Source of the DNA: a virus
IMG/VR virus record: IMGVR_UViG_3300047678_000188
Coordinates: 1-23,194 of that record
Length of the DNA: 23,194 nucleotides
Strand: one strand, 5' to 3'
Shown: piece by piece, positions 8,111-16,714 of the stretch
Numbering within the stretch: position 1 is the stretch's first letter
How the letters are laid out: each line of letters starts with the position of its first letter
Notes under the pieces: model-generated
What the model was told of the DNA's origin: nothing
Seen by the model: the letters and a program-made list of their open reading frames with translations, nothing else
Database searches by the model: none
Position numbers and translations under genes: made by a program

Positions 8111-9684
8111 CACGTGCTCCAGACATTGAAGTCCGTCTTCATCTGCACGCTGCCCGGGCCGTCGTCGTCTTCGCCCCGGCCGGGTGCCTTGAACGCATCG
8201 CCCCGTCCGCCCATCAGTTCGCCGCGTTCCACGCCGGCCAGCCCGACCAGGTCGAGCACGACGTACTGGAGCGCATCGTGCGGATTGGAGAACTCGTTCT
8301 TCTCCGGCTTCGGCTCGGTGCCCGCGTCGGTGCCGCGCCGCTTCCGGTAGCGGTAGTGGCTGTTGAAGCCCTTGCGGATCATCTTGGCTTTGCGCGACAC
8401 TTTCAGCGCCGGCCGCCCGTCGGGCAGGCGATACCGCAGCAGCTGGCGCACGCCGTCCTGGCGCGGGTGCAGCTCGTTCGTCTCGGCGGGGAAGATCACG
8501 ATGTCCATGACGGCGCCGACCGTCTCGAACATCGACTGGTCGCCGAACTCCTCGTCGCTGCCGTCGAAGCCGCGCGGATCGCCAGTGGCGCGCGCCACGC
8601 GGTATCCGCGGTACTCGGTTTCCAGCAGCAGCCGGCATCCGCGACCGAAGCCGGTCGGCCCGATCCGGCCGGGGCAATACTCGTCCAGGATCAGCAACTG
8701 GCCGTCGGGCAGGAATTGCGTCACCACCATCGCCGGCCCGCGCACGCCCTGGTCGAAGCCGAGCCGCAAGGGCAGGCCGGGGATCGGCGCCAGGTCGCGA
8801 TCGTCGTCGCAATGCAGCGTGTCGTCATACTCGGTGTAGACCGGCTCGCCCTCGCGGCTGAACCCCTTCAGCCCGTCGACCATCCGCCGCACCCAATCCT
8901 TCCGGTGCGCGTTCTGCAGGGCCATCTTCTCGTATGTCTCGCGCGAGATCGCCTCGCGGTTCTCGCCGTGCGGTCCTCGGCCCGATGGCTGGCGGTAGAG
9001 CTTGTGTCCCTCCGGCCGCTTCTCCTCGAAGACGTCATAGATCCAGTTCTCCGGATCGGCCGGGTTAAGGTCGCCCGTCACGCCGGTGTAGTAGTTCGTC
9101 CCCGGCTCGAAGAACCGCTTCGGCGGGAAGCGCTGCTGCAGCGCGCGGCCGATCAAGTAGGGCAGGACATCCTGGCTCTGCTGGTCGGCCTCGCCCATGT
9201 TCGCCGTCGTGAACTCGATGCCGCGCAGCGCCGCGTCGACATCCTGGTCCTGGATCGCCTGGAACACGATCTCGAAGTGGATGAAGCTGCCGTCGGCCTG
9301 CTCGAAGGTCAGCTGGTGGGTCGCCTTGCGGTTCTCGCCGCCGGTCCAGTTCCCGACGTCCGGCCCGAACCAGCCCCACCAGCTCTTGATCGTAGTGCCC
9401 CACAGGTTCGCGTAGGTGTCGCGGACCTCGATATGGCGGTGCAGGCGATGGCCGGCATAGGGGCCGCGCGTGCATTTCGGCATCTCGGCGGCCAGTGTCA
9501 GCTTGTCGAAAAAGTTGAGGTTGGTCTTGCCCGACCCGATCGGACCGTGCAGGAAACGGACGCTGTTCGCGCGGTCGCGCATCATCATCGTCGCGACGGG
9601 ACCGGGCGGCGTGTATTCGCGGATGTCCATCTTGGAATGCGCGGCCTCGCGGTAGAGCCGCAGGACTTCGGTGTCCGCGCTCAT
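8110..9684 (-). CDS. terL: terminase large subunit
   Basis: Encodes 524 aa, normal for a large terminase. The N-terminal ATPase has a Walker A loop GPIGSGKT at residues 47-54 and an acidic segment 'ANMGEAD' at 161-167 that probably carries the catalytic Glu. The C-terminal RNase H-like nuclease shows three spaced Asp: D311 in GFDQG, D369 in TGDPRG, and D470 in NPHDALQY. The protein cuts concatemeric DNA and pumps it into the head through the portal. A GGGGAGGG about 12 nt upstream and an ATGA overlap with the preceding ORF fix the start. It is unusually well conserved in motifs, so the packaging motor looks intact. Confidence 0.92.
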   Translation of the reverse strand: MSADTEVLRLYREAAHSKMDIREYTPPGPVATMMMRDRANSVRFLHGPIGSGKTNLNFFDKLTLAAEMPKCTRGPYAGHRLHRHIEVRDTYANLWGTTIKSWWGWFGPDVGNWTGGENRKATHQLTFEQADGSFIHFEIVFQAIQDQDVDAALRGIEFTTANMGEADQQSQDVLPYLIGRALQQRFPPKRFFEPGTNYYTGVTGDLNPADPENWIYDVFEEKRPEGHKLYRQPSGRGPHGENREAISRETYEKMALQNAHRKDWVRRMVDGLKGFSREGEPVYTEYDDTLHCDDDRDLAPIPGLPLRLGFDQGVRGPAMVVTQFLPDGQLLILDEYCPGRIGPTGFGRGCRLLLETEYRGYRVARATGDPRGFDGSDEEFGDQSMFETVGAVMDIVIFPAETNELHPRQDGVRQLLRYRLPDGRPALKVSRKAKMIRKGFNSHYRYRKRRGTDAGTEPKPEKNEFSNPHDALQYVVLDLVGLAGVERGELMGGRGDAFKAPGRGEDDDGPGSVQMKTDFNVWST

Positions 9685-9908
9685 CGGGCGAAGCCCTCCC
9701 CCGACCCCGGAAGGCTGGAGCCAGGTTTCACCCGCACGCCGAATCCGGAAACCGTTTTGACGGCTGAAAACCGCACGGGCTTCAGGATGTGCTCCATGGC
9801 CGCGCGGTTTCGAGGATACCCCCCGGCCGGCCTGCTGGCTGCGAGGAGGGCACCCCTCCGGACGGATCGGCCTGCCCGGCCGGGCTGGACCTGCTGATTT
9901 CTAATCAT
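9681..9908 (-). CDS. small ORF before the terminase, 75 aa, uncertain
   Basis: Encodes 75 aa of basic, Gly/Arg/Val-rich sequence that I do not recognise. In favour: a GGAGGT Shine-Dalgarno (9922-9917) lies 8 nt before the ATG, and its stop overlaps the terminase start as ATGA, so it could couple translation into terL. Against: composition is close to random GC-rich sequence, and it overlays an inverted-repeat-like stretch around 9745-9775 (CCGGAAACCGTTTTGACGG). It could be a leader peptide for terL. If it is not a gene, 9685-9941 is a 257-bp gap. Confidence 0.35.
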   Translation of the reverse strand: MIRNQQVQPGRAGRSVRRGALLAASRPAGGYPRNRAAMEHILKPVRFSAVKTVSGFGVRVKPGSSLPGSGEGFAR

Positions 9909-13852: not shown

Positions 13853-14983
13853 TCAGTCTCCCTTGATCAGGTCGTTGAAGTCCTTGCCGCGCGGGCTGCG
13901 CGCGACGCTCACGGTGCGGCCGCTGGCGCGCAATGCCGCCAGCGCCGCCTCGAGCTCTGCCATCGCCTGGGGCTTGCCCCAGTCGTTGTCGGCGGCCACG
14001 ATCACGCTGCCCACGCAGGGCAGGATCGGCACATGCCGCAGATTTCCCAGCGTCAGCGCCGCCCACACGCGGTAGTCGGGCAGCGCCAGCGACAGCGTCA
14101 GCGCGTCCTCGATCCCCTCGGCCAGGATCAGCGGGCCGGTGCGGCCCTGGCGGCCGGCCTCTTCCGGCGTCAGATTGCCGGCGCCCTTGGCGATGCGCAC
14201 CACGGCTCCCTGCCAGCCGGCCGGCCAGATCTTGCGCGGCTTGTTGTCCCCGGGCAGCGCGGCCTTGTCGCCGCCGTCCGGCCGCAACCAGGTGCGGTGC
14301 ACGGCGCGCGGCCTGGCGTCCGGCCCGGTCGCCAGCGCGATCATGCAGGGCAGGCCCTCGATCACCTCGCCGTCGCTGGTATGGTAGTCGTGGGTGGGTA
14401 GCAGGCGCACGGCGCCGGGCAGGTGGCGGCCCTTGTCCAGCCAGTCGCGCACCAGGTCGAGCCCGCGCGACCGCCAGTACCGGTCGACGATCGAGCCGGG
14501 AAACGTCGCCGGCGTCAGCTTCTCCGCCTTCAGCCACAGCGCAAAGGCGCCGCCGGCGTTCTTCTCGCGGCGGATCGCCTCGGCCTCGGCCTCGCGCGCC
14601 ATGCGCTCGGCGCGCGCCTGGCGCCGCTTCTCCAGCTCGGCCGCGCTCAACGGCTTGGCCTTGCCGCCCACCTCGGCCATGCCCAGCAGCTTCAGGCACT
14701 CGCGCCGCGTCTCGGCCATGTCGGGCAGGCGGCGGCAATACTGCACCAGGCGCACGATGTCGCCCTCGTCGACGCCCCGTATGCCGGCCTCGTCGCGCCA
14801 GGCGCCCCGCGCCGAGCCGGTCAGCAGCACCCAGAACGAGCCCGCATGCACGTCGTCGCGCGTCGGGTTGCGGCCGATCCAGTATTTGCCCTTGCGCCTG
14901 CCGTCGGGCACCAGCTGCGCGCACACGCCCTCGATGTCGTCCAGCAGCCGGTCACGGATCTCCTCGAAGCGCATCGCGGTCAT
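13853..14983 (-). CDS. DNA primase with TOPRIM domain
   Basis: Encodes 376 aa. The N-terminal domain (about 1-105) has 'GKYWIGRNPTRDDVHAGSFWVLL' and 'GDIVRLVQYC', as in phage and plasmid primases with a degenerate zinc-binding region. A charged coiled-coil-like stretch follows (115-142). The TOPRIM part begins at 'GPLILAEGIEDALTLSLAL' (E289 the conserved Glu) and continues to 'GSVIVAADND' (D332, D334). The C-terminus has 'GKDFNDLIKGD', typical of this class. TOPRIM primases make RNA primers for replication. The ATG overlaps the stop of the 59-aa gene (ATGA); a second ATG 9 nt further in is possible. Confidence 0.82.
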   Translation of the reverse strand: MTAMRFEEIRDRLLDDIEGVCAQLVPDGRRKGKYWIGRNPTRDDVHAGSFWVLLTGSARGAWRDEAGIRGVDEGDIVRLVQYCRRLPDMAETRRECLKLLGMAEVGGKAKPLSAAELEKRRQARAERMAREAEAEAIRREKNAGGAFALWLKAEKLTPATFPGSIVDRYWRSRGLDLVRDWLDKGRHLPGAVRLLPTHDYHTSDGEVIEGLPCMIALATGPDARPRAVHRTWLRPDGGDKAALPGDNKPRKIWPAGWQGAVVRIAKGAGNLTPEEAGRQGRTGPLILAEGIEDALTLSLALPDYRVWAALTLGNLRHVPILPCVGSVIVAADNDWGKPQAMAELEAALAALRASGRTVSVARSPRGKDFNDLIKGD

Positions 14984-15159
14984 GGCTTCGGCTCGCGCGG
15001 CTGGCGCCCGGCCGCCGTGTCGCGCGCATCGTGCAGCGTGCGGTAAACGGCGTCCTCGCGAACGGTGAGCAGGTCGGCGATCGCCTTGGTGTCGAAATAG
15101 CCGGATGCCCACAGCACGACGGCCGCCATCGCCTTGTCGCCGGTGAGGTAGCCGCTCAC
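14980..15159 (-). CDS. small helix-turn-helix protein, 59 aa
   Basis: Encodes 59 aa from a GTG start that overlaps the stop of the DnaA-like gene (GTGA) and follows a GGAGG at about 9 nt. The sequence MSGYLTGDKAMAAVVLWASG is followed by 'FDTKAIADLLTVREDAVYRTLHDAR', a clear helix-turn-helix of the kind used for DNA recognition. It probably acts as a small DNA-binding accessory or regulator with its overlapping neighbours, the DnaA IV-like protein and the primase. Partner and target are unknown. GTG starts at overlapping junctions recur at 15907 and 16457. Confidence 0.7.
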   Translation of the reverse strand: MSGYLTGDKAMAAVVLWASGYFDTKAIADLLTVREDAVYRTLHDARDTAAGRQPREPKP

Positions 15160-15509
15160 AGCATCGCCTCCAGCCGGGTCAGCAGGTCGTCGATCGCCGG
15201 CCGGTCGCGCGCGTCCTCGATCACGCGGCACGCGTCGGACACCGCCTTGCGCGGCCGCCCCAGCGTGCGCGCCAGCGCGCTGCGCCGCGCGTCCAGCGCC
15301 ACCACGGCCAGGTAGATCGTCACCAGCCGGGCAAAGCCGATCGGCGACGATCGCGGCCGCCTCGGCCGGCTTCCATGCTGGCGCCCGGTGATGTCGTCCT
15401 CGGCCAGGCCGGTTACCGACGCCACCACGGTCACCGCGCGCATGTACCGCGCCCGGGCGCGGGTCATGTCGCAGTTGCGTTCTCGTCGCGCGCGTCGGCT
15501 CCACATCAT
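15156..15509 (-). CDS. DnaA domain IV-like DNA-binding protein
   Basis: Encodes 117 aa. Residues 24-117 resemble the C-terminal DNA-binding domain of the replication initiator DnaA: 'VTVVASVTGLAEDDITG', an 'ARLVTIYLAVV' helix, then 'LARTLGRPRKAVSDACRVIEDARD'. The last aligns with the DnaA signature (iG.r.hsTV..A...i), though the His-Ser-Thr core is replaced by R-K-A. There is no ATPase domain. DnaA domain IV binds DnaA boxes, so this may mark the phage origin or alter host initiation. The ATG at 15509 is preferred for its AGGA at about 7 nt; a later ATG at 15467 lacks one. Two strong stem-loops precede it in the leader. Confidence 0.65.
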   Translation of the reverse strand: MMWSRRARRERNCDMTRARARYMRAVTVVASVTGLAEDDITGRQHGSRPRRPRSSPIGFARLVTIYLAVVALDARRSALARTLGRPRKAVSDACRVIEDARDRPAIDDLLTRLEAML

Positions 15510-15524
15510 GCAGTCCTGTTGGTC

Positions 15525-15592
15525 GGCCGCCCGGCCGGGAGGAGGAGGAGGCCGGGCGGCCTGGGACCGTGCCGGGGAGGAGGTCGGCACGG
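15525..15592 (-). ncRNA. tandem stem-loops with CCUCCUCCC loops (cuckoo/CcsR-like)
   Basis: In minus-strand RNA the first hairpin has arms CCGUGCCG and CGGCACGG (15592-15585 and 15574-15567) and loop ACCUCCUCCC. The second has 12-bp perfect arms GGCCGCCCGGCC and GGCCGGGCGGCC (15561-15550 and 15536-15525) and loop UCCUCCUCCUCCC. Both loops contain CCUCCUCCC, an anti-Shine-Dalgarno string. Paired hairpins with exactly this loop motif define the cuckoo/alpha-r14/CcsR small RNAs of alphaproteobacteria. The structure fills the only sizeable gap in the early gene train and ends 15 nt before the DnaA-like ATG. No T-tract follows, so it may be an mRNA leader or a processed RNA rather than a separate transcript. 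Confidence 0.6.
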
Positions 15593-15616
15593 GATCGCAA
15601 TGCAACACGCAACGAA

Positions 15617-15907
15617 CTAGGGGGTATGGCCGGCGGCCAGGCGGGACAGGTCGGCGCGACGCCATTCCAGCTCAGCCGCCAGGTCGCCGGGCAAAAACCC
15701 GTGAGCGTCCCGCACGCGGAGCAATGCCGCGATGCGACATTTGACGAAGCCGATGCCGCTCCACAGCTGATGGCGGATGAGCATGCCGATGATCTGTTGG
15801 TCGTACTCCAGCACGACGGCGTCGGGCACCTGCAGCAGCAGTCCGGCGCGCTCCCCGTTGGACGTGGCGTCGCGCAGCTGGTCGACGATCGGCGTCTCTG
15901 GGCTCAC
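15617..15907 (-). CDS. phage protein of unknown function, 96 aa
   Basis: Encodes 96 aa from a GTG, with GGGGAGG 6 nt upstream, one base after the stop of the preceding gene. The sequence starts MSPETPIVDQLRDATSNGERAG, then 'VVLEYDQQIIGMLIRHQLWSGIGFVKCRIAALLR', and ends with a charged helical part (LAAELEWRRADLSRLAAG). No domain is recognised. It is the last gene before the tandem stem-loops, so the hairpins could act in its 3' UTR. Confidence 0.6.
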   Translation of the reverse strand: MSPETPIVDQLRDATSNGERAGLLLQVPDAVVLEYDQQIIGMLIRHQLWSGIGFVKCRIAALLRVRDAHGFLPGDLAAELEWRRADLSRLAAGHTP

Positions 15908-16457: not shown

Positions 16458-16714
16458 GTCGCTTGCCTCCTCCGGGCGGCGCGGCATGCGTCGCCGATGT
16501 CCTTCACGGTGATGTCGCCGTGGCCGGGGCCGACGCGCAGCGTCAGCCGGCGGCGGTCCAGGTTGTCGGGGTCGGCGGCATAGGCCGCCTCCACCAGGTG
16601 CAGCCCGGTCCAGCCGCGTTCGCGCGCCTGGATCTTCACGCGGCCGATCATCGACGCGACGAACGTCTTCTCGTCGCGATAGTCGGGCGTGAACGGCACC
16701 GAGATCTCGATCAT
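16454..16714 (-). CDS. small phage protein, 86 aa, unknown
   Basis: Encodes 86 aa, MIEISVPFTPDYRDEKTFVAS at the start, then 'AYAADPDNLDRRRLTLRVGPGHGDITVKDIGDACRAARRR'. It looks like a compact alpha/beta protein with a basic C-terminus. It overlaps its neighbours at both ends (ATGA upstream, GTGA downstream). I do not recognise the family. Its neighbours suggest an early or regulatory role. Confidence 0.6.
   Translation of the reverse strand: MIEISVPFTPDYRDEKTFVASMIGRVKIQARERGWTGLHLVEAAYAADPDNLDRRRLTLRVGPGHGDITVKDIGDACRAARRRQAT

Follow-up and report, generated by a model that had tools for sequence, protein, structure and literature searches.

The window, i.e., the whole stretch of 23,194 bp that we analyzed, is an entire IMG/VR virus record, and it carries on its minus strand a gap of 107 nt (15616-15510) that lies between the stop codon of a 96-aa gene and the ATG (15509) of a gene whose protein, in a profile comparison with DnaA structures (E 2.1e-5), resembles the DNA-binding domain IV of DnaA. 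This gap is filled by two adjacent, perfect hairpins, which can be read directly from the minus strand. The first-pass annotation of this DNA had described two consecutive perfect stems of 8 and 12 bp at 15525-15592, placed between the 96-aa gene and the DnaA-like gene, and our analysis confirmed both the stems, read from the minus strand, and their location. The features of the locus are:

15617..15907, minus strand: 96-aa gene (phrog_16358), directly upstream of the gap, with a strong Shine-Dalgarno (SD) sequence, GGGGAGG
15610..15619, minus strand: 5′ arm of a predicted outer stem, UAGUUCGUUG, including the stop codon of the 96-aa gene
15592-15567, minus strand: hairpin 1, with a perfect 8-bp stem and a 10-nt loop, ACCUCCUCCC, at 15584-15575
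15561-15525, minus strand: hairpin 2, with a perfect 12-bp stem and a 13-nt loop, UCCUCCUCCUCCC, at 15549-15537
15511..15521, minus strand: 3′ arm of the predicted outer stem, including the AGGA ribosome-binding site of the DnaA-like gene
15156..15509, minus strand: gene for the DnaA domain-IV-like protein, directly downstream of the gap, with a weak SD
13853..14983, minus strand: primase gene (DUF7146 and Toprim_3; phrog_510), the next gene of the conserved block, with its ATG at 14983

The record also encodes CI-like and Cro-like regulators (the Cro-like label is based on translated sequence and position only, with no family match), a terminase, a head-tail connector, and capsid genes. A blastn search for the nearest annotated phage returned no match to this region of the window. 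We found no terminator near the gap, no consensus sigma-70 promoter near the gap in a scan that covered E. coli-type sites only, and no PF06568 match, i.e., no DUF1127 gene, anywhere in the record. A coding role for the hairpin region was considered and rejected: the DnaA-like frame is open across the region, but the relatives of this phage contain no such extension.

On the minus strand, the arms and loop of hairpin 1 read CCGTGCCG-ACCTCCTCCC-CGGCACGG, and those of hairpin 2 read GGCCGCCCGGCC-TCCTCCTCCTCCC-GGCCGGGCGGCC. The claim that both hairpins present the same loop string holds for CCUCCUCCC, a copy of the anti-SD sequence with which ribosomes recognize mRNAs, which is located within each of the two loops, but not for the whole loops, which are of 10 and 13 nt and are otherwise not identical; loop 2 takes the form of a short (TCC)n run. 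The motif CCTCCTCCC, searched on either strand, occurs twice in the 23,194-bp window, and both copies are the hairpin loops, whereas dinucleotide-shuffled windows (n = 20) contained a mean of 0.1 copies. None of these 20 shuffled windows contained the motif in the loop of a perfect stem of at least 8 bp, and none contained a side-by-side pair of stems of this size. Folding of the region against shuffles gave a z of -3.8 for 121 nt and of -4.9 for the exact 107-nt gap.

Comparison with Rfam identified two families of alphaproteobacterial regulatory RNA, with both models aligning across both hairpins on the correct strand and in the correct order:

15501..15602, minus strand: match to the Rfam ar14 model, 26.3 bits, sub-threshold
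15521-15601, minus strand: match to the CcsR1 model, 26.1 bits, sub-threshold

The ar14 match has an E of 0.0054 in a whole-library Rfam scan of 501 bp and of 6e-5 in a single-family search of the record, and the CcsR1 match has an E of 2.7e-4 in the whole-library scan of 501 bp. The CcsR1 match comes from this 501-bp scan only, since the hairpin site was not among the matches of a single-family CcsR1 search of the whole record. The proposed likeness to cuckoo, αr14 and CcsR RNAs, and the covariance-model scan suggested to check it, are therefore upheld as far as both matches are significant, but the scores are under half of the curated gathering scores (26.3 against 58.8 bits for ar14, and 26.1 against 65.3 bits for CcsR1), and the terminator and the DUF1127 gene are absent. 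As these scores are significant and yet far under the gathering scores, we class the element as having a cuckoo-like design, and not as a certified member of αr14 or CcsR.

Detailed comparison with each known system showed where the element in the window agrees and where it departs. Like αr14 (RF02344; NfeR1/Smr14 of Sinorhizobium meliloti), it has successive hairpins with CCUCCUCCC loops, variable stems, and a significant covariance match; αr14 contains three such hairpins and a 3′ terminator, whereas the element here contains two, with no terminator, inside an operon, and the 3′ part of the ar14 model aligns to UGUGG in the window and not to a U-run. The closest known layout, and the best analogue, is that of CcsR1-4 of Rhodobacter sphaeroides (RF02791), where two hairpins with CCUCCUCCC loops are likewise part of a longer transcript that lacks its own terminator; CcsR occurs with a DUF1127 gene (ccaF1) and in four units, in contrast to the single unit here, in a phage early operon that lacks DUF1127. 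In the loose sense, a cuckoo RNA is built of two to four hairpin modules that carry the loop motif on stems of any sequence, with SmelC201 containing two (PMC3927594), a description with which a second study agrees (PMC10746234). Judged against this published description, the element falls within the loose definition, which asks for two or more hairpins in a row with CCUCCUCCC in their loops and sets no constraint on the stems, and it differs from these cuckoo RNAs in being phage-encoded. The interpretation in the first-pass annotation is partly supported, and we describe the element as a divergent, operon-embedded, cuckoo-like RNA.

Relatives of this phage were found by searches with the primase and the 96-aa gene; the 96-aa gene identified no relative when used alone as a query and did so when used as an alignment. 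A prophage search of 397 genomes of the host order of a distant relative returned only distant primases, the best with 42% identity. Six relatives (L126/L249, L127/L251, L128, L129/L250, L147/L252 and L254) contain the 96-aa gene and, after it, a structured gap; the gene beyond this gap is DnaA-like and close to that of the window in L126, L127, L128 and L129, and is a small, more distant one in L147 and L254. One to three hairpins, mostly strong, are present in the gap in all seven phages with this gene order, with different loops, and the fold z of the gap is -1.0 to -3.9 in the relatives and -4.9 in the window. Only one relative, L128, has an anti-SD-like gap loop, UUCUCCUCCC, and it sits on a 10-bp stem of unrelated sequence; L126, L127, L129, L147 and L254 keep the gap and mostly strong hairpins, with other loops. 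The expectation that related phages would carry the same structure is therefore borne out for the gap hairpins, which are always present, and only in part, in L128, for the loop motif; the same loops with compensating stem changes did not occur at this locus in the relatives. A covariance model of our own from MAFFT alignment A1 was rejected, as the loops vary in length and the 3′ arms do not line up. Since hairpins are always present in the gap but their loops differ, what is conserved is a place for hairpins, and not an anti-SD RNA.

Conservation of the same loops across the wider set of primase relatives was rejected, as neither a hairpin scan of L005 and L126-L158 nor an ar14 search of 24 records from this set identified a second tandem pair; the single ar14 match, of 20.3 bits, lay far away from the primase locus. 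Distant rhizobial relatives contain one gap hairpin with a conserved loop around UGUCCGUUGU. This single hairpin lies upstream of the DnaA-like gene, on the plus strand, in L137:4591-4644, L139:5199-5252, L140:5090-5143, L141:5172-5225, L142:5166-5219, L154:6262-6315 and L156:6156-6209, and has a near-constant loop, AUYUGUCCGUUGU, on differing GC-rich stems. Rfam searches of the hairpin loci of L137, L140, L145, L154 and L156 gave no match. This hairpin is the same design idea, i.e., a constant loop on a free stem, with another loop. We also observed C-rich gap loops common to L251:2817-2844, L250:2856-2878 and L252:2940-2971 (GCGCCCCAAA, CGGCGCCCC and CGCCCCAA), which are possibly another loop code.

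The variation of the loops at this locus is the strongest argument for a role in cis, whereby the gap would act as a structured intercistronic leader that controls translation of the DnaA-like gene, with loop sequences being secondary. Because the loops differ among relatives we treat this as a serious rival, while considering it rather unlikely. The predicted outer stem (15619-15610 paired with 15521-15511) surrounds the two hairpins and sequesters the SD of the DnaA-like gene (mean unpaired probability 0.15), and since the AGGA site is paired in this stem with the region around the stop codon of the 96-aa gene, ribosomes finishing the upstream gene would open the stem, i.e., translation of the two genes would be coupled. 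The SD of L128 is similarly buried (0.20), gap hairpins with different loops are present in all seven phages (z -1.0 to -4.9), and at this position the more distant relatives carry a single hairpin, the loop of which is also conserved but different. However, SD burial is inconsistent, with unpaired probabilities of 0.42-0.53 in L126, L129, L147 and L254, and a leader acting in cis leaves the exact CCUCCUCCC in both loops unexplained.

The site of the outer stem 5′ arm (15610..15619) is the start of a CGTTGCGTGTTG string that is also present in relatives L126 and L147/L252. The combination CGTTGCGTGTTG...TTGCG was rejected as a conserved site, as its 85 matches are close to chance plus a few unrelated families, and it occurs in the gap only in two already known relatives. 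The TTGCG repeats at the start of the gap, and the DnaA domain-IV-like and primase genes downstream, are what would be expected if the gap were a DNA-level element, i.e., part of a replication origin with initiator binding sites and single-strand hairpins. We regard this as very improbable: there is no GC-skew turn at the gap, the TTGCG string is found outside this phage group in unrelated contexts, and an anti-SD match is not expected of DNA.

When IMG/VR was scanned for pairs of CCTCCTCCC copies separated by 30-60 nt, at least 120 stretches were identified. Among the 120 matches listed, 32 are strict cases, i.e., both copies are in the loops of tandem hairpins with stems of at least 6 pairs, and these represent 31 loci in 17 sequence groups by simple k-mer clustering (among the matches listed). 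As a control, a permuted motif of the same composition gave no tandem hairpin loops in 74 stretches. This control bears on the view that the gap contains ordinary intercistronic stabilizer or processing hairpins with no base-pairing function, their anti-SD likeness having arisen by chance or by (TCC)n slippage. In keeping with this view, hairpins are general in the gap with varied loops, and loop 2 is a run of triplets; the result of 0/74 argues against it, as does the presence of the same 9-mer in two independent loops and nowhere else in the window, and we consider it improbable.

In 38 of 41 records with candidate tandem hairpins, the ar14 model matched at E <= 0.001, and the curated ar14 cut-off was exceeded in 20 of these 41 records compared with 0 of 14 control genomes. 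The 20 include L089, where two αr14 copies (L089:757-1157, minus strand; 109 and 108 bits) adjoin a DUF1127 gene in a CIN1-like arrangement; because of this adjoining gene we put L089 aside as probably a host-type locus in a “viral” contig. The terminase family phrog_2 was uninformative, with matches in only 5 of 36 records. Neighboring genes were identified for some groups only. For example, the tandem hairpins neighbor a phage helicase and exonuclease in L013, L125 and L109, a helicase and Gp157 in L008, a helicase/methyltransferase in L014, and methyltransferases in L084 and L099. In L086 (1726-1803), they are located 12 nt after the end of a Mu-like major head gene, and in L106 (8200-8278) just before another major head/capsid gene, in both cases followed by a T-run. 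A CI-like repressor gene is present 165 nt upstream of the hairpins of L038, on the same strand, as if the hairpins lay in the 3′ UTR of this gene and were made during lysogeny. Tandem hairpins were also seen in L051 and L065, with those of L038 and L051 about 165 nt downstream of a 232-aa ORF. Some records contain a U-run after hairpin 2, and these look like free-standing RNAs; others, the element in the window among them, contain none.

Searches by blastn with the L008, L013, L038 and L106 regions gave no match to an annotated phage, and the L086 region matched Mu-like capsid genes only. In the open literature searched, with the original cuckoo paper (PMC4615179) lying outside that search, there was no mention of phage-borne cuckoo/αr14-type RNAs. 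The occurrence of cuckoo/αr14-type RNAs across many phage records has stronger support than the single case in the window, and in view of these records the description of such RNAs as usually chromosomal has to be revised. Similar hairpin pairs are present in many further phage records, and it is therefore probable that phages employ this host-type anti-SD RNA switch to control translation.

We therefore return to the window with the reading that we prefer, and to which we assign a probability of roughly 0.5: the gap encodes a phage version of the cuckoo design that would pair with GGAGG-type ribosome-binding sites. The anti-SD loops of NfeR1 silence mRNAs (PMC10746234), and the exact motif in both loops appears best explained by pairing with SD sequences, as for NfeR1 (PMC10746234). 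Two stable hairpins would each present the anti-SD sequence CCUCCUCCC, and the gap would be transcribed as part of the early operon. The loops may act within the mRNA, or after excision by host endonucleases, as with the CcsR RNAs of Rhodobacter, which RNase E cuts out of the ccaF1 mRNA (PMC10253847, PMC8625941). By pairing with GGAGG-type sites, they would cause the paired mRNAs, of phage or host, to be translated less or to decay. The purine-rich sites proposed as partners, GGAGGAGG before 16457 and GGGGAGG before 15907, are present, and duplex energies predict the strongest loop pairing at the 84-aa gene (start 17612), the 192-aa gene, the 96-aa gene and the terminase gene, with weak pairing at the primase and helicase starts. 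Two of these sites are:

16465..16473, minus strand: SD GGAGGAGG of the 192-aa gene (start 16457), predicted loop pairing -17.0 / -16.7 kcal/mol
9684..9705, minus strand: translation start of the terminase gene, with GGGGGAGGG, predicted loop pairing -16.6 / -20.5 kcal/mol

The candidate phage targets would be the terminase gene and the two genes with strong SDs that lie immediately upstream of the gap, with the weak-SD DnaA-like, primase and helicase genes spared; host mRNAs are equally possible targets. The term “sponge”, used in the first-pass annotation, is not the best word, since loops that imitate host anti-SD small RNAs would compete with them for the same mRNAs and would not soak them up. 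This distinguishes the element from AsxR and AgvB of EHEC prophages, which it resembles as a phage RNA with a putative effect on post-transcriptional control in host or phage, but which are sponges of host small RNAs, whereas the RNA in the window imitates an anti-SD small RNA.

Anti-SD hairpin RNAs have so far been studied as chromosomal regulators of stress and symbiosis, and many scattered cuckoo copies have been noted with mobile elements (PMC3927594). It is possible, at a little short of even odds, that phages of alphaproteobacteria commonly use cuckoo-type anti-SD RNAs as a tool, with independent phage lineages carrying them in replication, lysogeny, and head-gene modules and shifting translation away from strong-SD mRNAs; the window would then represent an operon-embedded version, either cut from the early mRNA or acting within it. 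If phages carry anti-SD RNAs routinely, phage traffic may explain part of the scattered copies, and these RNAs would provide phages with a general means of biasing translation initiation.
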